Assembly (NCBI RefSeq): GCF_017573545.1
Contig: NZ_JAGEOK010000001.1
Span: 496,001-560,000 of the forward strand
Length of the DNA stretch: 64,000 bases
Source of the DNA: Actinomadura nitritigenes
GTDB lineage: Bacteria > Actinomycetota > Actinomycetes > Streptosporangiales > Streptosporangiaceae
Reading direction: 5' to 3'
Positions 15,054-59,614 of this stretch are shown here, one piece after another. The stretch's first letter is position 1, and each line of letters starts with the position of its first letter. The translations under genes were made by a program, and so were the position numbers. Below the pieces are notes generated by a model that searched no databases, was not told the origin of the DNA, and saw nothing but the letters and a program-made list of their open reading frames with translations.

Positions 15054-16142
15054 TCAGCGGGCGGTGCTCGCCTCGTGGACCAGGTCGACGAGGCGGGCCA
15101 GCACGTCCGGGTTCGTCGACGGCAGCACCCCGTGGCCGAGGTTGAAGACGTGGCCCTCGGCCGTGCGGCCCCGGGCCAGCACGTCCAGCGCCCGCCGCTC
15201 GACCGTCTCCCACGGCGCGAACAGCACCGCCGGGTCGAGGTTGCCCTGCAGCGCCTTGCCCGGCTCGACGCGGCGGACCGCCTCGTCCAGCGGGACGCGC
15301 CAGTCGACCCCGACCACGTCCGCGCCCGCCTCGCCCATCAGGCCGAGCAGCTCGCCGGTGCCGACGCCGAAGTGGATGCGCGGCACGCCGAATTGCTCGA
15401 TCTCGGCGAAGATCCGGCCGGTGTGCGGCAGCACCGAGGCGCGGTAGTCCTCCGGCGCGACCGAGCCGACCCAGGAGTCGAACACCTGGATCGCGCTCGC
15501 GCCCGCCGCGATCTGCACCTTCAGGAACGCGATCGTGATGTCGGCGAGCCGGCCCATGAGCCGGTCCCACAGCTCGGGCTCGCCGTACATCATGGCCTTG
15601 GTGCGCTCCTGGTTCTTCGACGGCCCGCCCTCGATCAGGTAGGACGCGAGCGTGAACGGGCCGCCCGCGAAGCCGATCAGCGGCGTGGCCCCGAGCTCCC
15701 CGACCAGCCCCTGAACGGCCTCGGTGACGTAGGGCACGTCGCCGGGCTCCAGCGGGCGCAGCGCCTCCAGGCCCGCGGCGTCCCGGATCGGGTCGGCGAT
15801 CACCGGGCCGACGCCGGGCTTGATGTCGAGGTCGATCCCGATCGCCTTCAGCGGCACCACGATGTCGCTGAAGAAGATCGCCGCGTCCACGCCGTACCGG
15901 CGCATCGGCTGCATCGTGATCTCCACGATCATGTCCGGGCGGGCGCACGACTCCAGCATCGGCACGCCCTCGCGGAGCCGCAGATACTCTGGCAGTGCGC
16001 GGCCCGCCTGGCGCATGAACCACACGGGGGTGTGCGGCACGGGCCGGCGGCGGCACGCGAGCAGGAACGGGCTCTCCGCGAGCGGACCCGGATCGTCGGA
16101 CGGGTTCGCGGCGTCGTTGGGGCGGGCGGCGTCAGCGGTCAC
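15054..16142 (-). CDS. hemE: Uroporphyrinogen decarboxylase
   Basis: 362-residue UroD, cytoplasmic, converting uroporphyrinogen III to coproporphyrinogen III, the substrate of the oxidase encoded 3 kb away. Signature segments are all present: [20 protein letters not shown] near the N-terminus with the substrate-binding arginines, [18 protein letters not shown] with the catalytic aspartate, and [17 protein letters not shown] near the end. GTG 16142 is the start that best fits the family length; the frame is open 111 bp further upstream and no strong ribosome-binding site decides the matter. Divergent from the Zn-ribbon-like gene. Confidence 0.95.
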
Positions 16143-16300
16143 GTTGCGATGGTCCCACGAGAGCGCGTACCGGACGCACCGGGGTGACAACGAAGCGACG
16201 GCCGTGACCCACGAAGTTCCGGACACGCCGAGCGAAGTCCCGCATTCTGTCACCGGCGCATGCGAACGTGATGCGTGTCATAGCCGAGGGAGGTTCCCCC

Positions 16301-16582
16301 TTGCACTGCTCCACCTGCGGTGATGAGCGTGAGTTCGAGCAGCCGCCGTGTCCCGACGGGCACGGCGCGGAGTGCCCCGAGCGGGTGTGCGTCGAGTGCG
16401 GAGCGGCCGTCCTGGTCGACCCGCCGCTGACGTCCCCCGACCCCGCGTACGCGCCTCCCGGCCGGCCCGCCGCCGCGTCCCCCGCGGACCCGGCGGTCCA
16501 GGCGGTCCAGGCGTCCCCCGGCGGGACGGGCCCCAGACGCGCCGGCTCCTCGCCGGCCGCATCCGCGCGGGCCGTGGCCTGA
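16301..16582 (+). CDS. Small Zn-ribbon-like protein
   Basis: 93 residues. The N-terminal third carries CSTC at 3-6 and CVEC at 30-33 with further cysteines at 17 and 25, so a zinc ribbon or a pair of metal sites is likely. The rest is a Pro/Ala-rich disordered tail. I recall short proteins with the same DEREFEQPPC-x-DGHG core beside hemE and DUF3000 in other actinobacteria; function unknown. The TTG start is chosen because GAGGGAGG ends 7 nt upstream, whereas the ATG codons at 16268 and 16271 lack a site. Confidence 0.7.
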   Translation: MHCSTCGDEREFEQPPCPDGHGAECPERVCVECGAAVLVDPPLTSPDPAYAPPGRPAAASPADPAVQAVQASPGGTGPRRAGSSPAASARAVA

Positions 16583-16715
16583 ACGCCGCGGCCCCCGAGA
16601 CGAAACCCACTGTGCTGTGCCTGCATCCCCTCCGTTCCCTCCGGTCGCGCGCGGCGGCGTCCCGTCCCGGCACCACCGACACGAGTCCCGCCCCCGCACC
16701 CAGGCCGGTCCGCCC

Positions 16716-17282
16716 ATGAACCCTCCCGCCTTCCAGCGGGCCCTCGACACCCTGCGCGAGATCCTCGACGGGCCGGGCCCGCGGCCCGAGCTCGACCTGG
16801 AGGACATGCCCGCCCCGCAGAGCCTGGCCCCGTACGCCGCGGCCCTGTCCGGGTCGGTCTACCGCGACGACGACACCGAGGTCGCGATGGGCCGGCTGAT
16901 CGTCCTGTACGACCCCGACGGCGCCAAGGGCTGGACGAACGGCTTCCGGATCGTCGCCTACATCCGCGCCGACCTCGAACCCGACATCGCCGCCGACGAG
17001 CTGATCGGCTCCGTCGCCTGGGACTGGCTGCTCGAGGCGCTGGAGCCGGCCGGCTACGCGGGCGTCTCCGGGACGATCACCCGCGCGGTGTCGGAGAGCT
17101 TCGGCGACAAGCGCGACGAGCCGTCCACGACCGAGCTGGAGCTGCGCGCCTCCTGGTCCCCGACCGGCGACGATCTGGCCGGGCACGTCGCGGCCTGGTG
17201 CGAGGTGATGTGCACCACCGCGGGCCTGCCCCCGGCGGGCGTCTCCGCGCTTCCGGACCGGCCGGGCGGCGCGGGCCCCTGA
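16716..17282 (+). CDS. DUF3000 family protein
   Basis: 188 residues spanning the whole DUF3000 family: an LDTLREI start, APYAAALSGSVY, GRLIVLYDPDGAKGWTNGFRIVAYIRADLE and the VAWDWLLEALE segment. No signal peptide or membrane segment. The family is restricted to actinobacteria and its function is unknown. Its place between hemE and ribonuclease D is one I recall from other actinomycetes. ATG 16716 is used; no Shine-Dalgarno is obvious. The gene lies 77 bp before the ribonuclease D gene on the same strand. Confidence 0.9.
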   Translation: MNPPAFQRALDTLREILDGPGPRPELDLEDMPAPQSLAPYAAALSGSVYRDDDTEVAMGRLIVLYDPDGAKGWTNGFRIVAYIRADLEPDIAADELIGSVAWDWLLEALEPAGYAGVSGTITRAVSESFGDKRDEPSTTELELRASWSPTGDDLAGHVAAWCEVMCTTAGLPPAGVSALPDRPGGAGP

Positions 17283-17359
17283 GCCACGCGGGGCCGGCCC
17301 GGCGGAAGCGGGGGTCGTCCCTCCTCGGGAGGTCCTGAGAGCGACGTACGGTAGGGGAC

Positions 17360-18919
17360 GTGAGCACAGCGTCCGGAACCGAGGCGGCGGGGGAGAACAC
17401 GGGAAAAGTGGGAGTGTCCGAAACGCGTGCCACCGGTCCCGACCGGGACTCCGGTGGCGAGGAGCCCGCCGCACGGCCGGCGGGCGCGAAGAAGGCGGGC
17501 AAGGCGGTGCCCGCGGAGTCCGGCACGGCTGAGGAGCAGGCCGGAGCCGGCGGCGGAGCGGCCGGCGCGGTGGTGCCGGGTCCCGCGCCCGGCGCGACGG
17601 CGCCCGGCGGCGGAGCGGCCGGCGCCCCGGCGGCCGGCGTGGTCACCGCGGCGGGCGACGGCTCCGGTGAGATGGCCGCGGGCGAGAACACGGCCGGCGA
17701 CGAGCGGCCCCCGGCCGTGCTGCTGCTGGAGCCGCGCGAGGGCGTCCCCCCGGTCGTGGTCGACGCCGCCGAACTGGAACGCGTCATCGCCGCGTTCGCC
17801 GCGGGCACCGGCCCGGTCGCCGTCGACGCCGAGCGGGCGTCCGGCTACCGGTACGGGCAGCGCGCCTACCTGATCCAGCTGCGCCGCGCGGGCGCCGGCA
17901 CCGCGCTGATCGACCCGATCGCCTGCCCCGACCTGACCGGCCTGGACGCGGCGCTCACCGACGCCGAGATGGTGCTGCACGCCGCCAACCAGGACCTGCC
18001 GTGCCTGGCGGAGGTCGGTCTCGTCCCGAAGCGGCTGTTCGACACCGAGCTGGCGGGCCGGCTGCTCGGCTACCCGCGCGTCGGCCTCGGCTCCATGGTC
18101 GAGAACGTGCTGGGCTTCCTGCTGGAGAAGGGCCACTCCGCCGCCGACTGGTCCACCCGCCCCCTCCCCGAGGACTGGCTGCGCTACGCGGCGCTCGACG
18201 TCGAGCTGCTGGTGGAGCTGCGCGACGCGCTGGAGGCCGAGCTGCGCGACGCCGGGAAGCTCGAGTGGGCGCTGGAGGAGTTCGAGGCGATCCTCGCCAC
18301 GCCGCCGAAGCCGCCGCGCCCCGACCCGTGGCGCCGCACGTCCGGGATCCACCGCGTGCGCAACCGGCGCGCGCTGGCGACCGTCCGCGAGGTGTGGGAG
18401 GCCCGCGACAAGATCGCCCGCGAGCGGGACCTGTCCCCCGGCCGGGTGCTGCAGGACGCGGCGATCGTCGAGCTGGCGCTGAACCCGCCGAAGACGCCCG
18501 CCGACCTGCAGTCGCTGCCCACCATGCGCGGGCGCGGCGCCCGCCGGCACCAGTCGGCGTGGCTGCGCGCGGTGTCGCGGGCCCGCGCGGTGCCCGACCG
18601 GCAGCTGCCCGAGGCGAACCTGCCCGGCGACGGGCCGCCGCCCGCGCACCGCTGGGCCGACCGCGATCCCGAGGCCGCCAAGCGGCTGACCGCCGCCCGC
18701 GCCGTCGTCGCCGCGCTCGCCGACGAGCACTCGATGCCGTCGGAGAACCTGATCCAGCCCGACTTCGTCCGGCGGCTGGCGTGGACGCCGCCGGAGGAGC
18801 CGTCGGCGTCGGCGATCGGCGCCGCGCTGCGCGCGCTCGGCGCGCGGCGCTGGCAGGTCGAGCTGACGGCGCAGCCGATCGCGCGCGCGTTCCTCCGGCT
18901 CGACTTCCCCGGGCCGTGA
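17360..18919 (+). CDS. rnd: Ribonuclease D (3'-5' exoribonuclease)
   Basis: 519 residues. The DEDDy exonuclease domain (about 135-300) shows VAVDAERASGYRYGQRAYLIQL (first acidic motif, with Glu in DAE), HAANQDLPCLAEVG and the YAALDVELLVEL motif with Tyr and Asp. An HRDC domain follows (KIARERDLSPGRVLQDAAIVELA) and a C-terminal helical domain ends the protein. Processes the 3' ends of tRNA and other stable RNA. The first 130 residues are a low-complexity Ala/Gly/Glu region that looks disordered; it may be shorter if translation starts later. GTG 17360 has AGGGG 4 nt upstream and TACGGT 7 nt upstream. Confidence 0.92.
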   Translation: MSTASGTEAAGENTGKVGVSETRATGPDRDSGGEEPAARPAGAKKAGKAVPAESGTAEEQAGAGGGAAGAVVPGPAPGATAPGGGAAGAPAAGVVTAAGDGSGEMAAGENTAGDERPPAVLLLEPREGVPPVVVDAAELERVIAAFAAGTGPVAVDAERASGYRYGQRAYLIQLRRAGAGTALIDPIACPDLTGLDAALTDAEMVLHAANQDLPCLAEVGLVPKRLFDTELAGRLLGYPRVGLGSMVENVLGFLLEKGHSAADWSTRPLPEDWLRYAALDVELLVELRDALEAELRDAGKLEWALEEFEAILATPPKPPRPDPWRRTSGIHRVRNRRALATVREVWEARDKIARERDLSPGRVLQDAAIVELALNPPKTPADLQSLPTMRGRGARRHQSAWLRAVSRARAVPDRQLPEANLPGDGPPPAHRWADRDPEAAKRLTAARAVVAALADEHSMPSENLIQPDFVRRLAWTPPEEPSASAIGAALRALGARRWQVELTAQPIARAFLRLDFPGP

Positions 18920-18942
18920 TCCCGCGCGGATCACGGCCCGGG
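18908..18942 (+). terminator. Terminator hairpin overlapping the rnd stop codon
   Basis: CCCGGGCCGTGATCC (18908-18922) pairs perfectly with GGATCACGGCCCGGG (18928-18942), 15 bp with a 5-nt loop. The TGA stop of rnd is inside the left arm, so termination would follow directly on the end of translation. Confidence 0.65.
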
Positions 18943-19044
18943 TCACCGGGCGGATGATCGCCGCACCCGCATGTGACGTGCGTCTCGTCGGGTGAGGTGA
19001 CGGGATCGGGTCTTGCGGGGGGCGCCGCGGAGGCACACACTGGC

Positions 19045-19063
19045 TTAGGTTAGGTTTGCCTAA
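19045..19063 (+). promoter_or_regulatory. DtxR/IdeR-type iron box upstream of efeU
   Basis: TTAGGTTAGGTTTGCCTAA matches 16 of 19 positions of the DtxR/IdeR operator consensus TTAGGTTAGGCTAACCTAA. It lies 29 bp before the ATG of the iron permease gene. Repression by Fe(II)-IdeR is therefore expected. GGAGGAGG follows as the ribosome-binding site. Confidence 0.8.
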
Positions 19064-19092
19064 ACCATCCGTGTCTCTGGAGGAGGTCAGCG

Positions 19093-48890: not shown

Positions 48891-49829
48891 TCAGGCGGAC
48901 GCGTCGGTGAGCGCGGCGAGCTGGGCGTCGGTGAGGGTGGTGCGGGGCAGCCGGAGGAGCGGCTGGAGCTGCTCCAGCGTGCGGGCGCTCGCGATCGGCG
49001 CGGCGACCGTCGGCTGCGCGGCGAGCCACGCGAGCGCGACCGTCGCGACGGGCGCGCCCTGCTCCTCGGCGACCAGGTCGAGGGCGGCCAGCACCCGGCG
49101 CCCCCGCTCGGTCCTCAGGTACTCCCCCGCCCGGCCGGCGCGCGGGCTGTCCACCTCGGATCCCGGACGGTACTTGCCGGTCAGGAACCCCGACGCCAGG
49201 CCGTAGTACGGGACGCAGGCCAGCCCGTACCGCTCGGCGAGGTCGCGGCGCGGCCCCTCGTAGGTGTCGCGGGACACCAGGTTGTAGTGCGGCTGGATCG
49301 CCGCGTAGCGGGCCGTGCCCTCGCGCTCGCTGAACTCCAGCGACGCCTCGAGCCGGTCCGGCTCGATGTTGGACACCGCGATCTCGCGGACCTTGCCCGC
49401 GCGGACCAGCTCGTCCAGCGTCCCCATGATGTCCCCGACGGGGACGGACGGGTCGTCGAAGTGGGTGTAGTAGAGGTCGATGCGGTCGGTGCGCAGCCGC
49501 CGCAGCGAGTCGTCGGCGGCGGCCCGGATGTTCGCGGGCGCGAGGCCGCGCCGGTCGGGGTGCCGCCCGACCTTGGTGGCCACCACGATGCCGTCGCGGT
49601 TGCGGCGCTCCGCCATCCAGTCGCCGATGATCGTCTCGGACTCGCCACCCACGTTCCCGGGCGCGGACGCCATGTACGAGTCGGCGGTGTCGACGAAGTT
49701 GCCGCCGGCCGCCGCGTAGGCGTCGAGGATCTCGAACGAGTGGTCGCGGTCCGCCGTCCAGCCGAACACGTTGCCGCCGAGCGACAGCGGGTGGACGTCG
49801 AGGTCTCCGATCTTCCTGGTGTCAGCCAT
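48891..49829 (-). CDS. Aldo/keto reductase
   Basis: 312 residues, NADPH-dependent TIM-barrel oxidoreductase. The catalytic tetrad is recognisable: Asp47 and Tyr52 in FVDTADSYMASAPG, Lys86 in VVATKVG and His123 in LYYTHFDD. Resembles the YajO/IolS-type group acting on small carbonyls. ATG 49829 is preferred to an upstream TTG. Divergent from the LysE gene. Confidence 0.92.
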   Translation of the reverse strand: MADTRKIGDLDVHPLSLGGNVFGWTADRDHSFEILDAYAAAGGNFVDTADSYMASAPGNVGGESETIIGDWMAERRNRDGIVVATKVGRHPDRRGLAPANIRAAADDSLRRLRTDRIDLYYTHFDDPSVPVGDIMGTLDELVRAGKVREIAVSNIEPDRLEASLEFSEREGTARYAAIQPHYNLVSRDTYEGPRRDLAERYGLACVPYYGLASGFLTGKYRPGSEVDSPRAGRAGEYLRTERGRRVLAALDLVAEEQGAPVATVALAWLAAQPTVAAPIASARTLEQLQPLLRLPRTTLTDAQLAALTDASA

Positions 49830-49880
49830 GCTCCGATCCAATCAAAGGGTGCCCCGCCGCCGTTCCCCCGGCGGCCCCGA

Positions 49881-49898
49881 ACATTCCTGGCAGAATGT
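49881..49898. promoter_or_regulatory. 18-bp inverted repeat between the aldo/keto reductase and LysE genes
   Basis: ACATTC-CTGGCA-GAATGT, perfect 6-bp arms with a 6-bp centre. It lies in the 73-bp divergent region and ends 4 nt before the lysE-type ATG. Plausible operator or start-site hairpin; no regulator gene is adjacent. Confidence 0.4.
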
Positions 49899-49902
49899 CT
49901 GA

Positions 49903-50523
49903 ATGCTCACCGCTTGTCTTGCCTTCGCCGCGGTGGCCGCCGTCGTCACCGTCACGCCCGGACTGGACACGATGCTCGTCGTCCGGACCACGGTGTCCGC
50001 CGGCCGCCGCACCGGTTGCCTCGCCGCGGCCGGAGTCGCGTCCGGGTGCCTGACCTGGGCGGTGGCGAGCGCGGCGGGACTGACCGCGCTGCTCGCCGCG
50101 TCCCGCTTCGCCTTCGACGCGCTGCGCGTCGCGGGCGCCTGCTACCTGTTCTGGCTGGGCGCCCAGGCGCTCTGGCGGACCCGCCGCCGGTCCGGCGCGC
50201 CCGCCGCCGAGCCGGACGCGCCGGTCTCCGCGCTCGCCGCGTTCCGCACCGGGGTCACCACCAACCTGCTGAACCCGAAGGTCGGTGTGTTCTACATGAG
50301 CCTGATGCCGCAGTTCGTCCCGCACGGCGCGCCGGTGTTCGGGACGAGCATGGCGTTCGCGGCGATCCACACCGTCGAGGGCCTGCTGTGGCTCGGAGGC
50401 GTGGTGGGCGCCGCCGGGGCGGCGCGCCGGGCGCTGGCGCGCCCGGCCGTCAGGCGGCGCCTCCAGCAGGTCACCGGCCTCGCCTTCATCGGCTTCGGGC
50501 TGCGCCTCGTCACCGAGCGCTAG
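49903..50523 (+). CDS. LysE-family translocator
   Basis: 206 residues with six predicted helices and the LysE/RhtB signature: VTPGLDTMLVVRTTVSAGRRTG near the start and RTGVTTNLLNPKVGVFYMSLMPQF in the middle. Exports amino acids or other small metabolites. Its TAG stop (50521-50523) shares CTAG with the convergent Dpp ATPase gene. Confidence 0.92.
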   Translation: MLTACLAFAAVAAVVTVTPGLDTMLVVRTTVSAGRRTGCLAAAGVASGCLTWAVASAAGLTALLAASRFAFDALRVAGACYLFWLGAQALWRTRRRSGAPAAEPDAPVSALAAFRTGVTTNLLNPKVGVFYMSLMPQFVPHGAPVFGTSMAFAAIHTVEGLLWLGGVVGAAGAARRALARPAVRRRLQQVTGLAFIGFGLRLVTER

Positions 50524-51557
50524 ACCGCCGTCCCGGCGTCCGCGTCCGCGAAGTGGCAGGCGACCGCGTGCGCCGTCCCCTCCCGGACGGTCAGCTCCGG
50601 CACCTTCTCCGCGCACGTCCCGGCGGCCATGAAGCAGCGGGTGCGGAACCTGCACCCGCTCGGCGGCGCCGCCGGCGACGGCACCTCGCCCTCGAGGACG
50701 ATCTCCCGCGCGTCGTCGTCCGGCCGGTCGCGCACCGAGGGGACCGCCGACAGCAGCGCCCGCGTGTACGGATGCCGGGGATCGCCGAACACCTGGTCGG
50801 CGGGGCCCTGCTCGACGACGGTGCCGAGGTACATCACCGCCACCTCGTCCGCGATGTGCCGGACGACGTCGAGGTCGTGGGAGATGAACAGGTACGCCAC
50901 GCCCAGCTCGGACTGCAGGTCCGCCAGCAGGTTGAGGATCTGCGCGCGGACCGACACGTCCAGCGCCGACACCGCCTCGTCGCAGACGATCAGCCGGGGC
51001 CGCAGCGCGAGCGCGCGGGCGATGGCGACGCGCTGGCACTGCCCGCCGGACAGCTCGTGCAGGCGCCGGGCGGCGTGCTCGGGCCGCAGGCCGACCAGTT
51101 CCAGCAGGCGGGCGACCTCGGCGTCCTCGCGGTCGCGCGGCACGATGCCGGAGTGCACCCGCCATCCCTCCGAGACGACCGCGGAGACGGTCATGCGCGG
51201 GTTCAGCGAGGTGTAGGGGTCCTGGAACACCATCTGCACGTCGCGGCTCACGCGGCGGCGCCGCCGGGGCGGCATCGACGCGAGGTCCGCGCCGTCGAAC
51301 TCGATGGTCCCCGCGAACGCGGGGATCAGCCCCACGATCGCCCGCGCGAGCGTGGACTTGCCGCAGCCGGACTCGCCGACGACGCCGAGCGTCCGGCCCG
51401 CCCGGACCGCCAGGTCGAGCCCGGCGACGACGGGAACCCGCCGCCGGCCGAACCCGTGCCGGCCGGGCCGCTGGTAGCCGGCCTCCAGGCCGCCGACCCG
51501 CAGGACGACGCCGGCGTCCCCGGCCGGTGCCGCGGTGCCGTGCGCGGTCGCCGTCAT
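50520..51557 (-). CDS. Peptide/oligosaccharide ABC transporter ATP-binding protein (DppF type)
   Basis: 345 residues. Walker A GESGCGKST, signature LSGGQCQRVAIARA, Walker B LIVCDEAVSALD and the oligopeptide-transport C-terminal domain with GCRFRTRC (the Cys cluster seen in Dpp/Opp ATPases). Last gene of the nine-gene leftward operon; pairs with the DppD-type ATPase, whose stop overlaps its ATG by 4 bp. Confidence 0.93.
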   Translation of the reverse strand: MTATAHGTAAPAGDAGVVLRVGGLEAGYQRPGRHGFGRRRVPVVAGLDLAVRAGRTLGVVGESGCGKSTLARAIVGLIPAFAGTIEFDGADLASMPPRRRRRVSRDVQMVFQDPYTSLNPRMTVSAVVSEGWRVHSGIVPRDREDAEVARLLELVGLRPEHAARRLHELSGGQCQRVAIARALALRPRLIVCDEAVSALDVSVRAQILNLLADLQSELGVAYLFISHDLDVVRHIADEVAVMYLGTVVEQGPADQVFGDPRHPYTRALLSAVPSVRDRPDDDAREIVLEGEVPSPAAPPSGCRFRTRCFMAAGTCAEKVPELTVREGTAHAVACHFADADAGTAV

Positions 51558-52588
51558 CGGTCCTCCTCGGTGTCGTGGGCGGCGCCCACCTCGTCGGCGT
51601 GGTGGCAGGCGACGGACCGCCCGCCGCTCCCGGCGAGCGGCGGGTCCTCGGTCCGGCACACGTCCGTCGCGAACGGGCAGCGGGGATGGAAGGCGCAGCC
51701 GCCGGGCGGGCGCCGCGGATCCGGCGGCAGCCCCGGGACGGGGGTCAGGCGGCCGCCCTCCCTCCCGTCCGGCACGGCCCGGAGCAGGCCCAGCGTGTAC
51801 GGGTGCGCGGGGCGCGTGTAGACGGCGTCCAGCGGCCCCTGCTCCACGATCCGCCCGGCGTACATCACGGCGACCTCGTGGGCCATCCGCGCCACCACGC
51901 CGAGGTCGTGCGAGACCAGCAGCGTGGCGAGCCCCGCCTCCCGCTGCCGGCGGGCCAGCAGGCGCAGGATCTGCGCCTGGACGGTCACGTCGAGGGCGGT
52001 GGTGGGCTCGTCGGCGAGCAGCACGGACGGGCCGAGCGCCAGCGCCATCGCGATCACGGCGCGCTGCCGCATGCCGCCGGAGAACTGGTGCGGACGGTCG
52101 CCGTACCGCGACCCGGCGTCGGCGATGCCGACCTCGCGCATCAGCGCGACGGCCCGCTCGCGCGCCTCCCGGCGGCTCGCGCCGAGCCGGCGGCGGAACG
52201 GCTCGGCGATCTGGCGGCCGACGGCGAAACCCGGGTTGAGCGCGGCCATCGGGTCCTGGAAGACCATGGCGACCCGGCTGCCGCGCGCCTCCCGCCACTG
52301 CCGCGCGGTGAACGCGGCGGTGTCGTCGCCGCCGAGGACGACGCTCCCGGCGGTGATCTCGGCGCCGGGCGGCAGCAGCCCGATGAGGGCCAGGGACGTG
52401 AGGCTCTTGCCACTGCCGGACTCGCCGACGAGGGCGAGGACGCGCCCGGGGCGCAGCCGGAGCGAGACGCCGCGGACGACGGGGGTGACGTGCCGGCCGG
52501 AACGGAACCCGATGTGGACGCCGCGCAGCTGCGCGGCGGCGTCCTCGCCGGGCGGGGTGGGGACGGGGTGGACGGCTGACATGGTCAT
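51554..52588 (-). CDS. Peptide/oligosaccharide ABC transporter ATP-binding protein (DppD type)
   Basis: 344 residues. Walker A GESGSGKSLT, signature FSGGMRQRAVIAMALAL, Walker B VLLADEPTTALD and the C-terminal GCAFHPRCPFATDVC segment typical of Opp/Dpp ATPases, which may bind a metal cluster. ATG 52588 has AGAGG 7 nt upstream; ATG 52582 is an alternative. Second-last gene of the LacI-controlled operon. Confidence 0.93.
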   Translation of the reverse strand: MTMSAVHPVPTPPGEDAAAQLRGVHIGFRSGRHVTPVVRGVSLRLRPGRVLALVGESGSGKSLTSLALIGLLPPGAEITAGSVVLGGDDTAAFTARQWREARGSRVAMVFQDPMAALNPGFAVGRQIAEPFRRRLGASRREARERAVALMREVGIADAGSRYGDRPHQFSGGMRQRAVIAMALALGPSVLLADEPTTALDVTVQAQILRLLARRQREAGLATLLVSHDLGVVARMAHEVAVMYAGRIVEQGPLDAVYTRPAHPYTLGLLRAVPDGREGGRLTPVPGLPPDPRRPPGGCAFHPRCPFATDVCRTEDPPLAGSGGRSVACHHADEVGAAHDTEEDR

Positions 52589-52599
52589 GGGGGTGCCTC

Positions 52600-53487
52600 T
52601 CAGAGCTGGGCCCGGGGGTCGGCCAGGTCGCGGAAGGCGTCGCCGACGAGGCCGACTCCGGTGACCACGGCGGCCAGCGCGATCGCGGGCATCGTGGAGA
52701 TCCACCAGGCGGAGCCGAGGTAGTCGCGGCCCGCCGAGACGGTCGCGCCCCACGACGCCTGGTCGGGCGGGATGCCGAGGCCGAGGAAGCTCAGCGACGC
52801 CTCCGCGACCATCACCAGGCCGATCTGGACGGTCGCGGCGACCAGCAGCGGCTGCCAGCACGACGGCAGCACGTGCCGCAGGAGGATCCGCAGGTGGCCG
52901 GCGCCGAGGACGCGGGCGGAGTCGACGAACTCCAGGTCCCGCGTGGCGAGCGCGGACGCCCGCACGACCCGGGCGAACACCACCCAGCGGGTCACGGCCA
53001 GGGTGATGACGACGTTGGTGACGCTCGGGCCGAGGACCCCGGCGATGAGGATCGCCAGCAGGATCGACGGGAACGCCAGCTGGACGTCCCCGACGCGGGA
53101 CAGGACGGTGTCGGCCCAGCCGCCGAAGTAGCCGGAGACGAGCCCGGCGGCGAGCCCGACGGCGCCGCCGGCGAGGACGGTGGCGGCGGCGACCAGCAGG
53201 GACACGCGGCTGCCGGCGAGCAGGGTGGTGAGCATGTCCCGGCCGAGCTGGTCGGTGCCGAGCCAGGCGACCGACCCGTCCCCGAGCCGCGAGCCGGGCG
53301 GCAGGAGGCGGTGCGGCAGGTCGGTCGCGACCGGGTCGTAGGGCGTCAGGACCGGCCCGAGGAGCGCGGCCAGGACGAACAGCCCGACGACGGCGAGCCC
53401 GATCCACGCCCGCACCGGCAGCCGGCGCCCGCGGCGCCCTCGGGGCTCGGCGGCGGCCGGCGCGGGCGCGGCGGCGATGGCGCTCAT
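52600..53487 (-). CDS. Peptide/oligosaccharide ABC transporter permease (DppC type)
   Basis: 295 residues with an N-terminal helix after a basic RGRRGRRLPVR stretch, a periplasmic LGTDQLGRDMLTTLLAGSRVSLLVA segment and the coupling loop STDQLGRD-to-VVRASALATRDLEFVDSARVLGAG. The DppC/OppC pattern is clear. Partner of the DppB-type permease, 13 bp away. Confidence 0.92.
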   Translation of the reverse strand: MSAIAAAPAPAAAEPRGRRGRRLPVRAWIGLAVVGLFVLAALLGPVLTPYDPVATDLPHRLLPPGSRLGDGSVAWLGTDQLGRDMLTTLLAGSRVSLLVAAATVLAGGAVGLAAGLVSGYFGGWADTVLSRVGDVQLAFPSILLAILIAGVLGPSVTNVVITLAVTRWVVFARVVRASALATRDLEFVDSARVLGAGHLRILLRHVLPSCWQPLLVAATVQIGLVMVAEASLSFLGLGIPPDQASWGATVSAGRDYLGSAWWISTMPAIALAAVVTGVGLVGDAFRDLADPRAQL

Positions 53488-53500
53488 GGTGTGCTCCCGT

Positions 53501-54427
53501 TCATGCGTTCTGCGGGGTGAGGCGCGGGTCGAGGGCGACGCACAGGACGTCGACGACCAGGTTCAGCGCGATGTAGCAGACCGTGATCGTCACGATGGCG
53601 GCCTCGACCACGGCGTAGTCGCGGTTGGTGATGGCGTCGACCATCAGCGAGCCGAGGCCGGGCCAGGAGAACACCACCTCGACGATGACGGCGTTGGCGA
53701 TGAAGTTGCCCATCAGCAGGCCGAGGACGGTCACGACGGGCAGCGCGATGTTGCGGGCGACGTGCACGTACAGCACGGCGCCCTCGCCGGTGCCCTTGGC
53801 GCGCGCGGTGCGGACGTAGTCCTTGCCGATCTCCTCCAGGGCGCCGTTGCGGACGAGCCGGGCGAGCCAGCCGACGAACGGCAGCGCGAGCGTCACCGAC
53901 GGCAGGATCACCGCCTCGGGGCCGCCGCCCGCGGTGCTGGGCAGCCAGTGCAGCTGCCGGGCGAACAGCAGGATCAGCACGATGCCGAGCCAGAACGACG
54001 GCAGCGCCTGCCCGACGAGGGAGCCGGCGGACACGAGCGCGTCGAGGATCCGGCCGGGCCGCCGCGCGCACAGCATGCCGAGGGGGAACCCGGCGGCGAC
54101 GGTGATGAGGAGGGCGAGGGCGGCGAGCGCGAGGGTGGCGGGGAAGCGGTCCAGGGTGGCGCTCATCGCGCCGCCGCCGAGCCGCCAGGAGTCGCCGAAG
54201 TCGCCGTGCAGCACCTCGCCCATGTGCGTGAAATACTGCCGCCACAGGGGCTTGTCGAGGCCGAAGTCGGCGCGGACGGAGGCGAGCTGGTCGGCGCTCG
54301 CGTCCGGGCCGAGGATGAGGGTGGCGGGGTCGCCGGGGACGACCCGCACGACCACGAACACCAGCGTGACGGCGCCCCAGGCGACGAGGACGGCCTGGCC
54401 GGCGCGGCGGAGCAGGAAGCGGCCCAT
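53501..54427 (-). CDS. Peptide/oligosaccharide ABC transporter permease (DppB type)
   Basis: 308 residues. N-terminal helix followed by the VRVVPGDPATLILGP periplasmic motif of OppB/DppB, then the coupling loop RNGALEEIGKDYVRTARAKGTGEG. Six helices. Its ATG overlaps the lacI-type stop by one base (TGATG). Confidence 0.92.
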   Translation of the reverse strand: MGRFLLRRAGQAVLVAWGAVTLVFVVVRVVPGDPATLILGPDASADQLASVRADFGLDKPLWRQYFTHMGEVLHGDFGDSWRLGGGAMSATLDRFPATLALAALALLITVAAGFPLGMLCARRPGRILDALVSAGSLVGQALPSFWLGIVLILLFARQLHWLPSTAGGGPEAVILPSVTLALPFVGWLARLVRNGALEEIGKDYVRTARAKGTGEGAVLYVHVARNIALPVVTVLGLLMGNFIANAVIVEVVFSWPGLGSLMVDAITNRDYAVVEAAIVTITVCYIALNLVVDVLCVALDPRLTPQNA

Positions 54428-55509
54428 CAGGACGTCCTCCCGGTCCGGTCGCCCGAGGGCGCGGGCCCGCGGGTGGAGGAGCGGACGACGAGGTCGGCGG
54501 TCAGCAGCGTCCGGCCGGGGACGTCCGCGGGCGGCGCGCCCGCCATCCGCTCCAGCAGCCGGTCGACGGCGGTGGTGCCGACGCGCGCGGCGGGCAGCCG
54601 GACCGTGGTGAGCGGCGGGGCGAGGTAGGCGGCGAACGGGTGGTCGCCGTGCCCCGCGACGGCGACGTCTCCGGGGATGGACAGGCCGTGCTCGGTGAAC
54701 GCCCGGTACAGGCCGAGCGCGAAGTAGTCGTTGCCCGCCAGGACGGCGGAGCCGGGCTCGATCCGCGCGGCGAGCCGGCGGCCGACCGCGTAGGAGTCGA
54801 TCGGGTCCCAGGGCTGCGAGCTGGCCTCCCGGCGGCGGGTCGGCACCCGCAGGACGTGGTCGTCGCGGATCTCGATGCCGCGCTCGGCCAGCACGGCGCG
54901 GAAGCCGCGGATCCGCTCGGCGACCGGGGAGATGTCGAGGTCCTCCTCGACCAGGTACAGCTCGCGGGCGCCGCCGTCCACCAGGTGCTCGGTGGCGCGG
55001 CGGGCGCTGTCGTAGTAGTCGACGCCGACGAGGTCGGCGTCGAGGCCGGGCAGGTCGCGGTTCAGCAGCAGGACGGGCGTGCCCGACTTGCCGAGCCGCT
55101 CCCAGTGGTCGATGCCGTGCTGCACGGGGACGGCGAGGACCCCGTCGACGCCCCAGCGCATCAGCTCCTCGGCGACGCGCCGCTCGTTCTCGGCGCTGTC
55201 CTCGGTGACCATCAGCATCAGCGAGTAGCCGTGCACCCGGCCGCGCTCCTCGATCGCGCTGATGAGCCGGGCGTAGAACGGGTTGGAGGGGTTGGTGATG
55301 ACCAGGCCGATCGTCATGGCGTTCTGGAGCACCAGCGACCGCGCCATCGTGTTCGGCACGTACCCGAGCCGGTCGGCCTCGGCCCGCACCCGCTCCCGGG
55401 TCTCGGCGCTCACCGCGTCCTTGCCTGCGAGGGCGCGGGACACGGTGTTGACCGACAGGTCGAGCGCGGCGGCGATGTCGCGCAGGGTGGCCCGGCGGCG
55501 CGGCGTCAT
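54427..55509 (-). CDS. LacI-family transcriptional regulator, inside the Dpp operon
   Basis: 360 residues. HTH TLRDIAAALDLSVNTVSRALAGKDAVSAETRERV at the N-terminus, hinge helix, then a periplasmic-binding-like sensor (about 60-345) with TIGLVITNPSNPFYARLI. LacI regulators usually sense sugars, which is unusual next to a peptide-type importer. The gene sits between the solute receptor and the permeases, with 4-bp and 1-bp overlaps. It is the natural candidate for the palindrome at 59492-59509 and would then repress its own operon. Confidence 0.92.
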   Translation of the reverse strand: MTPRRRATLRDIAAALDLSVNTVSRALAGKDAVSAETRERVRAEADRLGYVPNTMARSLVLQNAMTIGLVITNPSNPFYARLISAIEERGRVHGYSLMLMVTEDSAENERRVAEELMRWGVDGVLAVPVQHGIDHWERLGKSGTPVLLLNRDLPGLDADLVGVDYYDSARRATEHLVDGGARELYLVEEDLDISPVAERIRGFRAVLAERGIEIRDDHVLRVPTRRREASSQPWDPIDSYAVGRRLAARIEPGSAVLAGNDYFALGLYRAFTEHGLSIPGDVAVAGHGDHPFAAYLAPPLTTVRLPAARVGTTAVDRLLERMAGAPPADVPGRTLLTADLVVRSSTRGPAPSGDRTGRTS

Positions 55510-57023
55510 GGCGTCCTCCTCGTGACCGTGGACAGGTCGGGCTGGTTGTTCGCGGCCGGGACGAACCCGGTGATGCCGGATCCGAGGCCGTAGGCGGTGG
55601 TGAGCGCGGCGGGGAAGACCCCGACCGCGTCGTCCCAGACGATCCTGCACGCCTCGGCGTACAGGCGGGCCCGGTCGCCGGACCCGGCCGCCTGCCCCGC
55701 CTCGGCGAGGATCGTGTCGAGCGCGGGGTTCTTGTAGCCCATCCGGTTCGCCTTGGAGGTGTAGAGGCGGCCGAGGGTGAAGGCCGCGTCCCCGGTCGTC
55801 ACCGTGTTGGTCTGGAGCTCCATGTCCCAGTCGAGGCCGTTGAGGCGCTGCAGCCACTCGGCCTTCTCGATGCTCTGCGGCCGGACGGTCACCCCGACGT
55901 CCTTCCATGCCGAGATCATCGACTGGGCGAGCTCGCGGGCGAGCGGGCCGGTGGCGTCGAACCACATCATCGTGGTCGTGAACCCGTCGCCGAGGCCCGC
56001 GTCCCGCAGCGCCTTCCGGGCGGCGCCCGGGTCGTGGGCGTAGGGCCGCTGCGCGGCGTGGCCGAACACCGTGGCGGGGATCGGGGCGTCCATCCGCCGC
56101 GCGCCCGCGCCGAACAGCTTCCCGACGATCTCGTCCATGTCGAGGGCCTGCACCATGGCCCGCCGGACCCGCGGGTCGGTGAACGGCCTGCGCCCGCAGT
56201 TGAACCAGGTCAGGTAGTACGTCCAGCTCGGCACCGACGCGACCCGCACGCCACGCTTGCCCGTCACCTCGCCGAGCTGGTCGGACGGGACGGGCCACAG
56301 CAGGTCCACGTCGCCGTTGCGCAGCGCCGTGATCGCGCTGGACGTCTCGGCGATGAACGGCATCGAGATGCCCGGCAGCCGGGCCGGCCCCGCCCAGTAC
56401 CCGTCGAAGCGGGCCAGCTCGACGGCGGTGGACGGGGTGAACCCGGTGACGCGGAACGGCCCGGAGCCGATGGGCCGGCGCTTCTGCGCCGGGTCGGCGA
56501 CGAGCCTCGCCGGGACGATGAACAGCAGCGTCAGGTTCACCGGCAGCGTCCCCATCGGCCCGTCCGTGACGAACGTGACCGTGGTGTCGTCGTCGGCCCG
56601 CGCGGACTTCACGGTCGCCCACAGCGCGCTCTGCGCCGACTTCACCGCCTTCGTCCGGTCGAGGCAGGCGACGACGTCGCGGGCCGTCAGCGGGCTCCCG
56701 TCGTGGAAGCGCACGCCGGGGCGCAGCCGGAACACCCAGGTGGTGTCGTTCTCGCGCCGCCACGACGCGGCCAGGCCGGGCACCAGCCGGCCCGCCTCGT
56801 CGCGGCGGACGAGGGTGTCGAAGACCAGCCGCTTGACGATCAGCGACGCCTCGTCCACCGCGGTGCCCGCGTTGTACGGGTCGAGGTCGGTGACCGGCTG
56901 CCCGAACGCGGCGCGCAGCGACCCGCGCGGCGCGGCCCCGCCCGCTCCGCCGCAGCCGCCGAGCGCCACGGCGGAGGCGCCCAGGCCGGCCAGCGCGAGG
57001 AACTCGCGCCTTCGCAGGTCCAT
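55506..57023 (-). CDS. Dpp-type ABC solute-binding lipoprotein (Tat-like signal)
   Basis: 505-residue solute-binding protein, family 5. The N-terminus combines RRREFLALAG, a twin-arginine-like motif, with a lipobox ALGGC-GG (Cys24), suggesting export folded and lipidation. Core motifs include VFRLRPGVRFHDGSPLTARDVVACLDR. Family 5 receptors bind peptides, nickel, heme or oligosaccharides; together with LacI control a glycan or sugar-phosphate ligand is possible. Stop overlaps the lacI-type start by 4 bp. Confidence 0.9.
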   Translation of the reverse strand: MDLRRREFLALAGLGASAVALGGCGGAGGAAPRGSLRAAFGQPVTDLDPYNAGTAVDEASLIVKRLVFDTLVRRDEAGRLVPGLAASWRRENDTTWVFRLRPGVRFHDGSPLTARDVVACLDRTKAVKSAQSALWATVKSARADDDTTVTFVTDGPMGTLPVNLTLLFIVPARLVADPAQKRRPIGSGPFRVTGFTPSTAVELARFDGYWAGPARLPGISMPFIAETSSAITALRNGDVDLLWPVPSDQLGEVTGKRGVRVASVPSWTYYLTWFNCGRRPFTDPRVRRAMVQALDMDEIVGKLFGAGARRMDAPIPATVFGHAAQRPYAHDPGAARKALRDAGLGDGFTTTMMWFDATGPLARELAQSMISAWKDVGVTVRPQSIEKAEWLQRLNGLDWDMELQTNTVTTGDAAFTLGRLYTSKANRMGYKNPALDTILAEAGQAAGSGDRARLYAEACRIVWDDAVGVFPAALTTAYGLGSGITGFVPAANNQPDLSTVTRRTP

Positions 57024-57035
57024 GACGGCGCTCCC

Positions 57036-57386
57036 TCAGCTCTTCAGCGCGAGATAGATCATCACGGTGGCGGTGGGGTCCGGCCCGGTCCCGGGCCCGT
57101 CCCCCGCCTCGACGGTGCCCTTCAGGCGCAGCCAGCCGCCGAAGCCGGCCGACTCCCAGCTGGCCAGGTCGCCGGTGATCTCGCGTCCCGCGTCGAGGTC
57201 GCACCAGTGCAGGCCGTCGGGCGAGATCTGGGTCGTCACCCGCAGCCGGGTGCCGGAGCCGGTCCGCTTCAGCGTCCGGACGAACCAGCGCGCCTCCGCG
57301 GCCCAGGCCGCCTCGTAGGGTTCCGTCGCGAACTCGCCCGCCAGGGTGCGGTTGCGTTCCAGGACGGCCGTGAACGACTCGCGCAT
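57036..57386 (-). CDS. Small uncharacterised protein in the Dpp operon
   Basis: 116 residues, not recognised. No signal peptide. The sequence alternates polar strands: RLRVTTQISPDGLHWCDLDAG, then GFGGWLRLKGTVEAG and TATVMIYLALKS, which reads as a beta-sandwich. Similar patterns occur in proteins that present carbohydrate-binding or capsid-like folds, but that is inference only. It lies between the phosphodiesterase side and the solute receptor, 12-14 bp from each neighbour, so clearly part of the operon. Confidence 0.65.
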   Translation of the reverse strand: MRESFTAVLERNRTLAGEFATEPYEAAWAAEARWFVRTLKRTGSGTRLRVTTQISPDGLHWCDLDAGREITGDLASWESAGFGGWLRLKGTVEAGDGPGTGPDPTATVMIYLALKS

Positions 57387-57400
57387 GCTGCCGGGGCTCC

Positions 57401-58351
57401 TCACCAGTCCACCGAGATCAGTACCGAGTCCAGGTACAGGAAGTTGCGCACGTCGGTGTGCGTCCTGACCGAGACGTAGAAGTTGAGCAGGTTCTGCAGG
57501 GACCCGTACTCCTCGTCGTACGGGGGGACGGGCACGTCGCGCATGTCGTAGACGGTGTCGTTGACCTGCAGCTCGACGTTGGAGCGCGTGCTCGTGTCGA
57601 TCAGCCACCGCACGTAGTGCCAGTTGACCTTGGTCGGCACCTCGTTGTAGCAGAGCTCCTGCGGCCCGCCGAACGCCTTCCAGTCGTCCGGGTCGGGAGC
57701 GGTGAAGTCGGCCGTGGGCGGCAGCTTCAGCTTGCCCTCGAAGTGCTCGCGCGGCGTCGGCTCCGGCACCTTCGGGTAGACCCACTCGCGCCGCAGGTTG
57801 TTGTCGAGGTCGGTGTTCAGGTAGCGGGCGACGCAGTGGTAGCGGACGCCGTCGCAGATGTCGGTCGCGATGGTGAACGCGCCGAACTGCTGCTCGGACG
57901 GGTGCAGGTTCGCGTCCCACTCGCCCGCGCCCGCCTTGGCCGCCGCCTGGTTCTCCTCCGACGCCGCCTCGGTCTTGAAGGTCAGGTACGCCTCGAACTG
58001 CACGCGGCCGCGGCCCGCCATCGTCAGCCGGCGGATCGCGACGCCGGTGTGCCCGGCGAGCGGCCGGGTGGCGACCTTCAGCGCGTACGTCCCGGACATC
58101 GCGCCGTGCGTGCCGACGTCGAAGAAGTTGCACGAGCTGAGCTGCGGCGGCCGGAAGTCGCGCATGTGGTCGTCGACGGTGTCGAGGTTCCCGTGCCCGT
58201 CGTAGTTGCCGAGCAGCTCGATCCAGCCGTGCGTGCCGGTGTTGAAGTCGTCGTGGACGAGGATCCGGTCCAGCGGGTCGAACCGGGACAGCGCGGGGTC
58301 GGCCTTGCGGAGCTCGGCGGCCAGGGAGCGTCCGCTCGCGGCGGTGGTCAT
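57401..58351 (-). CDS. Uncharacterised beta-sandwich-like protein in the Dpp operon
   Basis: 316 residues, not confidently assigned to a family. No signal peptide. It opens with RILVHDDFNTGTHGWIELLGNY, then SGTYALKVATR and RGRVQFEAYLTFKTEA, a succession of strands as in jelly-roll, laminin-G-like or glycan-binding domains. Later segments, YHCVARYLN, KVNWHYVRWLID and DSVLISVDW, keep that pattern. A ligand-binding or hydrolytic role on glycans or phosphorylated glycans is possible. Overlaps the phosphodiesterase gene by 4 bp, implying coordinated function. Confidence 0.65.
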   Translation of the reverse strand: MTTAASGRSLAAELRKADPALSRFDPLDRILVHDDFNTGTHGWIELLGNYDGHGNLDTVDDHMRDFRPPQLSSCNFFDVGTHGAMSGTYALKVATRPLAGHTGVAIRRLTMAGRGRVQFEAYLTFKTEAASEENQAAAKAGAGEWDANLHPSEQQFGAFTIATDICDGVRYHCVARYLNTDLDNNLRREWVYPKVPEPTPREHFEGKLKLPPTADFTAPDPDDWKAFGGPQELCYNEVPTKVNWHYVRWLIDTSTRSNVELQVNDTVYDMRDVPVPPYDEEYGSLQNLLNFYVSVRTHTDVRNFLYLDSVLISVDW

Positions 58352-59454
58352 CGGGCGGCCCCCTCGATCCTCACGGTGGCGTCCACCAGGTTGTGGTCGG
58401 AGCGCAGCAGGTCGCGCGGCTCGCCCGCCTGCGCGGTGGTCTGCGGCACGAGCGTCCACTGCCGGACGGGCGTGCCGGCCTTGACGAAGATGTGGTCGAT
58501 CTTGTCCTCCGACTTCGGCAGCGGGATCTTCCCGCCGTTGAACGACGCGTACTCGGCGCCGGTGCGCCGGTTCGCCGGGGCCGCCTCGAAGGAGTCGGTG
58601 TAGCCGAGGTCGGCGAACGCGTCGTAGGCGCTGGCGCCGTCCTCCTTCGAGGCGGAGTTCATGTCGCCCGCGAACACGACCGGCAGCCGCCGCGTGGCGG
58701 GGTTGTCGCGGGTGAGGTACTGGGCGGTGCGGGTGGCGTCGGCGTAGCGGACCTGGTCCCAGTTCTTGGTCCAGCCGTTGGGGTCGGTCGCGCCGTTCTT
58801 GCGGTACTCCAGGTGCATGTCGACGACGACGAAGCGGGTGCCGGTGCGGCGCTCGCGCAGCACGTTCCACGTCATCGTCTTGCCGTAGATCTCGGTGGAG
58901 TCGGGCAGCCACAGCAGGTCGTGCGGGAGGGCCCGGCCGCGCTCGTCCTCGGCGGAGAACCGGCGGGCGTCGTAGTAGGTGAACCGGCCCGCGCCCGACT
59001 TGAGCGGGTAGCCGTACCAGGGGTTGCGCGTTCCCGCGTAGTCCGCGGGCGCCTCGGCGTAGCCGCGCTCCCGCATCGCCGCGGTCAGCGGCGCGCGGAA
59101 CGACTCGACGTCCACGCCCGGCTGGGTCGGGGTGGGGTTGTTGCCGATCTCCTGCGTGACGACGACGCCGGCGCGGGCGCGGACGATGTCGTCGGCGACC
59201 TGCGCGGCGCGTCCGTCCGCCCACGGGGCGAGCTTGGTCGCGCAGTCGCGCCCGATCGTGTCGACGCACTCCTGCTCGGTCGGCAGGCAGCCGTGCCCGC
59301 ACGTGTTGTAGGTGGCGATCCGCAGATCGAAGCCGCGCGGGTGCCGGCCCGGCGCGGCGGCCTGCGCGGCCGCCGCGGGGACGAGCACCGCGGCGGCGCA
59401 GGCGGCCGCGGCGAGCGCGGCGGCCGGGCGGGCGGGGGGACGGGGGGTCCTCAT
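58348..59454 (-). CDS. Secreted endonuclease/exonuclease/phosphatase-fold hydrolase
   Basis: 368 residues with a Sec signal peptide (cleavage near AQAAA, 30-34). The EEP motifs are complete: Asn50 in ATYNTCG, Glu102 in TQEIG, Asp212/His214 in VVDMHLEY, Asp264/Asn266 in AGDMNSAS, Asp319 in DKIDHIF and Asp353-His354 in SDHNLVD. EEP enzymes cleave phosphodiesters in nucleic acids, sphingomyelin, inositol phosphates or GPI-like molecules. First gene of the LacI-Dpp operon. GGAAGG lies upstream of ATG 59454; the promoter region with a LacI-like palindrome is at 59487-59509. Confidence 0.85.
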   Translation of the reverse strand: MRTPRPPARPAAALAAAACAAAVLVPAAAAQAAAPGRHPRGFDLRIATYNTCGHGCLPTEQECVDTIGRDCATKLAPWADGRAAQVADDIVRARAGVVVTQEIGNNPTPTQPGVDVESFRAPLTAAMRERGYAEAPADYAGTRNPWYGYPLKSGAGRFTYYDARRFSAEDERGRALPHDLLWLPDSTEIYGKTMTWNVLRERRTGTRFVVVDMHLEYRKNGATDPNGWTKNWDQVRYADATRTAQYLTRDNPATRRLPVVFAGDMNSASKEDGASAYDAFADLGYTDSFEAAPANRRTGAEYASFNGGKIPLPKSEDKIDHIFVKAGTPVRQWTLVPQTTAQAGEPRDLLRSDHNLVDATVRIEGAAR

Positions 59455-59486
59455 GCTGGCGGGAGCCTTCCGGTGTCGGCTGCGTC

Positions 59487-59509
59487 ACATTAACGTTCAC
59501 GTGATCGTT
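59487..59509 (-). promoter_or_regulatory. LacI-type operator overlapping the putative operon promoter
   Basis: AACGTTCACGTGATCGTT (59492-59509) is a near-perfect 18-bp palindrome with a central CG, as in LacI-family operators. On the minus strand TAATGT (59487-59492) is a good -10 box, so the palindrome occupies the spacer between it and a weak -35. Repression by the LacI protein encoded at 54427-55509 is inferred. Confidence 0.6.
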
Positions 59510-59550
59510 CACACACCATCGATGTACCGCTGCCGTCCTGTCAAGAGCGG

Positions 59551-59614
59551 AAACGAAAACGGCCCGGCCCCCCGCACGAGCGAACAGCAGGCTCGTGCAC
59601 GGGGGACCGGGCCG
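59551..59614 (-). terminator. Intrinsic terminator of the tetR gene
   Basis: On the minus strand a long G-C stem (59607-59614 with 59560-59567, continuing through 59592-59598 with 59574-59580) is followed by GTTTTCGTTT (complement of 59551-59560). Hairpin plus T-rich tail, 20 bp after the tetR stop. Confidence 0.7.

Follow-up and report, generated by a model that had tools for sequence, protein, structure and literature searches.

What does a soil bacterium gain from an operon that joins a secreted hydrolase of the EEP (Exo_endo_phos) fold to a Dpp-type importer and a LacI-family regulator? The question is raised by a stretch of 64,000 nucleotides from Actinomadura nitritigenes (contig NZ_JAGEOK010000001.1, positions 496,001 to 560,000; at its full length referred to here as the window), in which nine consecutive leftward genes run from 50520 to 59454, with a palindrome upstream at 59492-59509. 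A first-pass annotation, made from the sequence alone, had described these as genes for a secreted EEP-fold enzyme, two unassigned probable beta-sandwich proteins, a lipoprotein receptor, a LacI regulator and a complete DppBCDF importer, and all nine are present with the expected families when open reading frames and Pfam profiles are consulted (Table 1). One of the beta-sandwich proteins belongs to the family DUF6772 and the other is its small neighbour. Computation establishes the composition of the operon, a conserved operator-like site, the constancy of the gene pair formed by DUF6772 and the small protein, and a repeated association of that pair with enzymes of phosphodiesterase superfamilies. 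From these we infer a phosphodiester cargo, its sugar nature, repression by LacI and the order of the steps; the operon could then be a dedicated, LacI-repressed system that scavenges a sugar-containing phosphodiester, a reading to which we give an even chance.

The gene pair was followed through 51 DUF6772 loci. Named genomes were scanned once for them, using six short peptide patterns from the query, a procedure that under-represents divergent relatives such as those of alphaproteobacteria; genes in the loci were labelled by phmmer with seeds from these same loci, and other phosphodiesterases would be missed. The small protein is found beside DUF6772 in 51 of the 51 loci, which were themselves found through DUF6772, and the pair is accompanied by LacI in 50, by DppBCDF in 44 and by an SBP_bac_5 receptor in 43. 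A secreted EEP is present in 13 loci, a secreted PLD-like protein in 10 and a cytoplasmic EEP in 20, so that 41 of the 51 hold one or other of these three predicted enzymes. Conserved co-occurrence, proposed as a check by the first-pass annotation, is seen for the pair with LacI and SBP_bac_5 and fails for the window's own secreted EEP: the EEP gene is missing from most loci and the beta-sandwich genes, through one of which the loci were found, from none. The suggestion of phosphodiester scavenging gains from the recurring phosphodiesterase-superfamily enzyme and loses the secreted EEP as a constant part, since a PLD-like protein or a cytoplasmic EEP stands elsewhere and some loci hold none. 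That many relatives keep the pair but use a different cutting enzyme suggests a shared sugar-phosphate food.

The loci fall into types that differ in enzyme and transporter. Type A (13 loci; Actinomadura and some Streptomyces) has the secreted EEP as its first gene, and type B (eight loci; Pseudonocardiaceae, one Micromonospora) has a secreted PLD-like protein (PLDc_2) adjoining DUF6772. Type C (20 loci; Kribbella, Jiangella, Nonomuraea and others) has an EEP that lacks a signal peptide, within or close to a set of Dpp-type genes, together with a histidine phosphatase in 19 of the 20 (22 of the 51 loci overall), and both Nonomuraea loci of this type also carry a PLD-like protein. A large Lamin Tail Domain (LTD) protein lies near some type C loci (L029 at 15763-19068, L028, L035, L045 and L048) and gave a weak match to ExeM where tested, in L029; the EEP part of its working label ‘LTD_EEP’ was wrong, Pfam finding the LTD only. 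In type D, five Amycolatopsis loci, a metabolite:H+ symporter-like MFS carrier replaces the Dpp importer and none of the three enzymes is present. Outside these types stand L014, L020, L026 and, on short contigs, L034 and L047; in L020 the MFS label denotes distant carriers (269 bits), unlike the adjacent carrier of the Amycolatopsis loci, and L047, on a contig binned as Chloroflexia, holds an actinobacterial-like DUF6772 locus (82% identity) that may reflect misbinning or transfer. FGGY sugar kinases occur in six of the 51 loci, two of them only distantly alike: in L016, L017 and L022 two such kinases and a histidine phosphatase adjoin the PLD-like gene, joined in L016 and L022 by a 2-hydroxyacid dehydrogenase, and in the Arthrobacter locus L014 two lie downstream of the operon. 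These kinase and phosphatase sets are a clue to the sugar.

How far the association exceeds chance can be gauged from the strain's own 10.6 Mb genome, which holds nine matches to PF03372 and none to PLDc_2; an EEP would hence be expected in about 2% of stretches of some 20 kb, against 33 of the 51 loci, a rough yardstick in that it sets a Pfam count beside a count made with phmmer seeds. On the DUF6772 tree the secreted EEP is lineage-bound and needs a single change (14 rows including the window, support 92/70), the PLD-only label needs two, which is also the minimum forced by the starred branches, with PLD appearing again in the two Nonomuraea loci, and the cytoplasmic EEP without PLD needs six; each of these changes may be a gain or a loss.

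Both expected domains of the LacI regulator were found (PF00356 helix-turn-helix, 45.9 bits; PF13377 sensor domain, 101.1 bits), and a palindromic operator-like site lies in the presumed promoter region of the operon. When the strain's genome was searched (10,585,337 bases, 96.7% complete), AACGNTCACGTGANCGTT at up to two mismatches matched only 59492-59509, and the control gave 0. Among 47 promoter regions from the other loci, four of the 51 having been dropped where contig ends cut them, the best match to the window palindrome reached at least 13 of 16 positions in 29 and at least 12 in 37, compared with 0 and 3, respectively, of 389 upstream regions of unlabelled genes from the same loci, controls in which coding DNA is included; 31 of the 47 regions reached p <= 0.01 when each was compared with 200 shuffles. 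The palindrome that the first-pass annotation had placed on a putative promoter is real, and as a candidate operator it recurs in other loci. Ten of the 13 type A loci, those whose contig extends far enough, carry the site some 50-110 bp ahead of the EEP gene (L023 with 12/16 only); in type B a site of 14-15/16 lies between the PLD gene and DUF6772 in seven of eight, along with a weaker second site (12-14); and in type C a site of 13-15 precedes the IclR/Dpp set or DUF6772 in 12 of 20, seven of them Kribbella, with L041 and L051 showing a 12/16 match between IclR and the histidine phosphatase instead. The 12/16 match between carrier and DUF6772 in three of five type D loci is near background level. 

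Whole genomes chosen because their locus carries the site (eight of the 13 type A, 10 of the 20 type C) tell where else it occurs, not how frequent it is at the locus: it is single and at the locus in all eight further type A and all ten type C genomes. Nine other genomes (seven of PLD type, L014 and L020) hold one or two sites, confined to the locus in eight of the nine, with one control match in the L022 genome. The L020 genome has an extra site (L089, 6651-6668) about 0.3 kb upstream of a phosphoenolpyruvate carboxykinase gene; a prediction that this second site would precede a phosphodiesterase gene failed, and it is perhaps the site of another LacI-type regulator, or chance. A co-directional sodium:solute symporter gene lies just upstream of the operator in L005 (7116-8726; Pfam SSF, tested in this locus), L007 (7028-8638) and L008 (7041-8651), and is not general. 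Judging from these sequence comparisons, we conclude that LacI is probably a local, dedicated regulator and, because of where the site lies, that DUF6772 probably shares its regulation with the PLD gene and, in most type C loci, with the Dpp set. The earlier proposal of one LacI-controlled unit is in this way supported, with a conserved candidate operator.

The two proteins of the constant pair are better placed than before. The larger scores 428.8 bits against DUF6772 (PF20562; cut-off 27), its residues 13-316 aligning to profile positions 3-284, and structure prediction gives it the fold of ConA and the L-type lectins; a sequence search of solved structures returned nothing at E <= 1. For the smaller a jelly roll is predicted, with no Pfam match at E 0.001; it scores 13.1 bits against DUF6385 (PF19912; cut-off 26.8), and an alphaproteobacterial relative 25.3 bits. 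Of the annotation's ‘two unassigned beta-sandwich proteins’, the beta sandwich therefore holds as a prediction and ‘unassigned’ does not hold for DUF6772, the other being a weak relative of DUF6385. DUF6772 is rare, occurring in one of 396 genomes of the phylum (this one) and in 14 of 65 of the genus, this one included.

The pair also extends to a second phylum. In a plasmid collection seven records hold DUF6772; the Nonomuraea record is chromosome-sized (11.8 Mb) and the remaining six, 34-36% identical, come from alphaproteobacteria. In all five annotated plasmids (Chelatococcus twice, Terrarubrum, Roseomonas and Rhizobium; L090-L093 and L095) DUF6772 is followed, as in the window, by a relative of the small protein (77-83 bits). 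The cassettes differ from the window in their sugar ABC transporter, FadR/GntR regulator, mandelate-racemase-family enzyme and SDR, present in five of five, and in having no Dpp importer in the cassette and no EEP or PLD annotated. Two of the mandelate-racemase-family enzymes were tested and came closest to sugar-acid dehydratase models, all below cut-offs; the Rhizobium cassette (Q54) additionally encodes an SMP-30-type lactonase, and the translated neighbours in the sixth, unannotated record look alike. The occurrence of the pair together in every one of the 51 loci and in another phylum makes it unlikely to be decoration. Its place seems to be in the breakdown of carbohydrates or sugar acids, and the phosphodiesterase and Dpp importer would be its actinobacterial supply route. 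The carbohydrate rather than peptide theme of the first-pass annotation finds support both in these sugar-acid-type cassettes and in the FGGY kinases.

The secreted enzyme scores 24.5 bits against PF03372, equal to the Pfam cut-off, and the family search of the strain's genome did not return it, so automatic annotation may leave it unnamed. An alanine-rich, signal-like stretch can be read at its N-terminus, and the candidate catalytic motifs YN, QE, H, GDxN and SDH, whose roles we take to be those of the Exo_endo_phos family, do not vary across the 14 aligned sequences; a protein search that scored the 7995 candidates with most words in common found 30 relatives. A single-sequence search of solved structures gave no match at E <= 0.01, nor did one with the PLD-like protein. 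The EEP profile found members of the same fold (3g6s, E 8e-6; 4c1r, named mannosyl-6-phosphatase, E 2e-4; and 3mpr within that range), which resemble the window enzyme weakly in sequence, along its final third. Secreted and cytoplasmic EEP resemble each other weakly (hhalign probability 36%, E 4e-4).

Transport is of a recognisable kind: Pfam identifies the full Dpp/Opp-type complement of an SBP_bac_5 receptor, two permeases and two oligo_HPY ATPases, and the receptor begins with MDLRRREFLALAGLGASAVALGGC, read as a twin-arginine-like signal with a lipobox. The closest known logic is that of agrocinopine use in Agrobacterium, where the acc system comprises the receptor AccA, an ABC importer, the phosphodiesterase AccF, which cleaves the imported opine, the phosphatase AccG and the repressor AccR (PMC4526662). 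Both would join an SBP_bac_5-type receptor to an ABC importer that takes up a sugar phosphodiester, and would add a repressor and a phosphodiesterase, a candidate one in the DUF6772 loci; AccG has its counterpart in the phosphatase of many type C loci. The likeness is one of logic, and AccF as described there acts after import, whereas the window EEP is secreted. The window receptor is not especially close to AccA, though AccA chains are among its PDB relatives, with 5u4o, YliB and DppA.

In the favoured reading, then, the EEP hydrolase would cut phosphoester bonds in an extracellular phospho-sugar compound, and the lipoprotein receptor, presumably Tat-exported, with DppBCDF would import a small sugar-bearing product. 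The DUF6772 and jelly-roll pair, maybe acting together, would process the sugar part in the cytoplasm, and substrate or product would release LacI from its single operator. Cutting would take place outside the cell in the window and after import in type C, as in agrocinopine use.

Several observations weigh against scavenging of a sugar phosphodiester. Ten of the 51 loci lack all three enzymes (the five Amycolatopsis MFS loci, L014, L020, L026 and the short contigs L034 and L047), and the loci are related, hence the independent changes behind the association are few. The type C enzyme, with no signal peptide seen, is cytoplasmic, so the phosphodiester would be imported whole and the step order would differ from that of the window. 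The pair needs neither enzyme in the five alphaproteobacterial stretches, where no gene is annotated as EEP or PLD; the metallophosphoesterase gene of L090 is about 9 kb away from DUF6772. Among the closest PDB relatives of the receptor are peptide and nickel receptors, and the agrocinopine receptors do not rank first. Ten of the 47 promoter regions score below 12, and the PLD-type locus L018 shows no site. The EEP and PLD families, finally, also include nucleases and phosphatases, and the window EEP, which could be a phosphomonoesterase, has a weak match to the extracellular DNases ExeM/NucH (NF033681): it shares with them a secreted EEP fold and falls far below the model cut-off, at 30.7 bits against 300.

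Four other explanations were weighed. Were the EEP (or, elsewhere, the histidine phosphatase) to strip terminal phosphates from phosphorylated oligosaccharides, with import of the dephosphorylated sugar, the system would handle a sugar-phosphate monoester; the histidine phosphatases of 22 loci fit this, and both EEP profiles match 4c1r, but so weakly (E 2e-4 and 1e-3), and with PLD-like enzymes, typically phosphodiesterases or phosphatidyl transferases, present in 10 loci, that we think it rather unlikely. EEP and PLD folds both include phospholipid-acting enzymes, and a sphingomyelinase-C-like secreted EEP or a PLD might free polar head groups such as glycosyl-inositol-phosphate for import and catabolism, with work for the FGGY polyol/sugar kinases. 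We regard that as distinctly improbable, for a type C enzyme without a signal peptide would not meet membranes outside, and no lipase or fatty-acid gene was seen, on reading translations, in clusters common to at least four loci.

Both superfamilies also hold secreted nucleases, and extracellular nucleic acid could be the food, the importer carrying nucleosides, nucleotides or oligonucleotides. The ExeM/NucH match of the EEP, the LTD protein near type C loci and, as a small point, an adenosine deaminase gene 7-9 kb upstream in three of the 51 loci (L005, L007 and L008) are in keeping with such a diet; the distance of the EEP from the ExeM/NucH cut-off, the sugar-acid-like alphaproteobacterial cassettes and the translations of the clusters common to at least four loci, in which no nucleoside gene was seen, make it very improbable. 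Least credible of all is an ordinary Dpp-type operon for peptides or metal chelates with accessory genes carried along: the NCBIfam and PDB neighbours of the receptor and permeases are indeed NikA-, GsiB- and Dpp-like, but the pair is constant, accompanies sugar enzymes and sugar transporters in a second phylum, and goes with an MFS carrier in place of Dpp in five loci. Scavenging of a sugar phosphodiester is thus the reading retained.

Table 1. Features of the operon and its promoter region (positions in the window).
Feature	Position	Strand	Basis
EEP-fold (Exo_endo_phos) hydrolase, secreted, 368 aa, operon gene 1	58348..59454	-	PF03372 at cut-off, signal-like N-terminus
DUF6772 protein, 316 aa, predicted legume-lectin/ConA-like beta sandwich, no signal peptide seen	57401..58351	-	Pfam, structure prediction
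Small predicted jelly-roll protein, 116 aa, weak DUF6385 relative	57036..57386	-	Structure prediction, profile score
SBP_bac_5 (Dpp/Opp-type) lipoprotein receptor, twin-arginine-like signal	55506..57023	-	PF00496, 260.6 bits
LacI-family regulator	54427..55509	-	LacI HTH + Peripla_BP_3
DppB-type permease	53501..54427	-	BPD_transp_1
DppC-type permease	52600..53487	-	BPD_transp_1 + OppC_N
DppD-type ATPase	51554..52588	-	ABC_tran + oligo_HPY (scanned as 51554-52603); start ATG 52588
DppF-type ATPase	50520..51557	-	ABC_tran + oligo_HPY
Probable LacI operator palindrome AACGTTCACGTGATCGTT, 38-55 bp upstream of EEP start	59492..59509		Genome uniqueness, phylogenetic footprint with controls
TTGACA (-35-like) box just upstream of operator	59539..59544	-	Read from sequence
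GC-rich hairpin then TTTTCGTTT, probable terminator of upstream TetR gene	59560..59614	-	Read from sequence

Within the operon, overlaps of 1-4 bp are real but were ascribed a little too generously to ‘most’ junctions: four of the eight overlap (EEP/DUF6772, SBP/LacI and DppD/DppF by 4 bp, LacI/DppB by 1 bp) and the other four are gaps of 14, 12, 13 and 11 bp. No convincing -10 box was seen near the presumed operon promoter, where a promoter scan gave no full match. The hairpin with its T-rich tail is probably the terminator of the TetR gene upstream, although absent from the list of the terminator scan, and the operon would then be a separate unit. Genes of AKR and LysE type (48891-50523) adjoin it and are common only to the nearest Actinomadura relatives: all three of the nearest have AKR, L002 alone has LysE, and TetR is seen in L003, the sole contig reaching that far. 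Membership of the neighbouring AKR, LysE and TetR genes in the operon was rejected, other loci being without them beside it.

The transport logic of this operon is known in kind. The pair of DUF6772 and the small protein, and the exchange of phosphodiesterases around it, are undescribed as far as searches go; neither DUF6772 nor DUF6385 is named in the literature searched, outside which most subscription papers lie. As a tentative proposal, to which we give somewhat less than an even chance, DUF6772 and its jelly-roll partner may form an undescribed two-part carbohydrate-processing enzyme of Actinobacteria and Alphaproteobacteria; in Actinobacteria, phosphodiesterases unrelated to one another would have been recruited repeatedly, supplying it from a widespread sugar phosphodiester not yet recognised as a nutrient. 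Two uncharacterised protein families thereby gain a shared, testable role. Since the operator is single and dedicated, one screen with a reporter assay could reveal the natural inducer and, through it, the nutrient.

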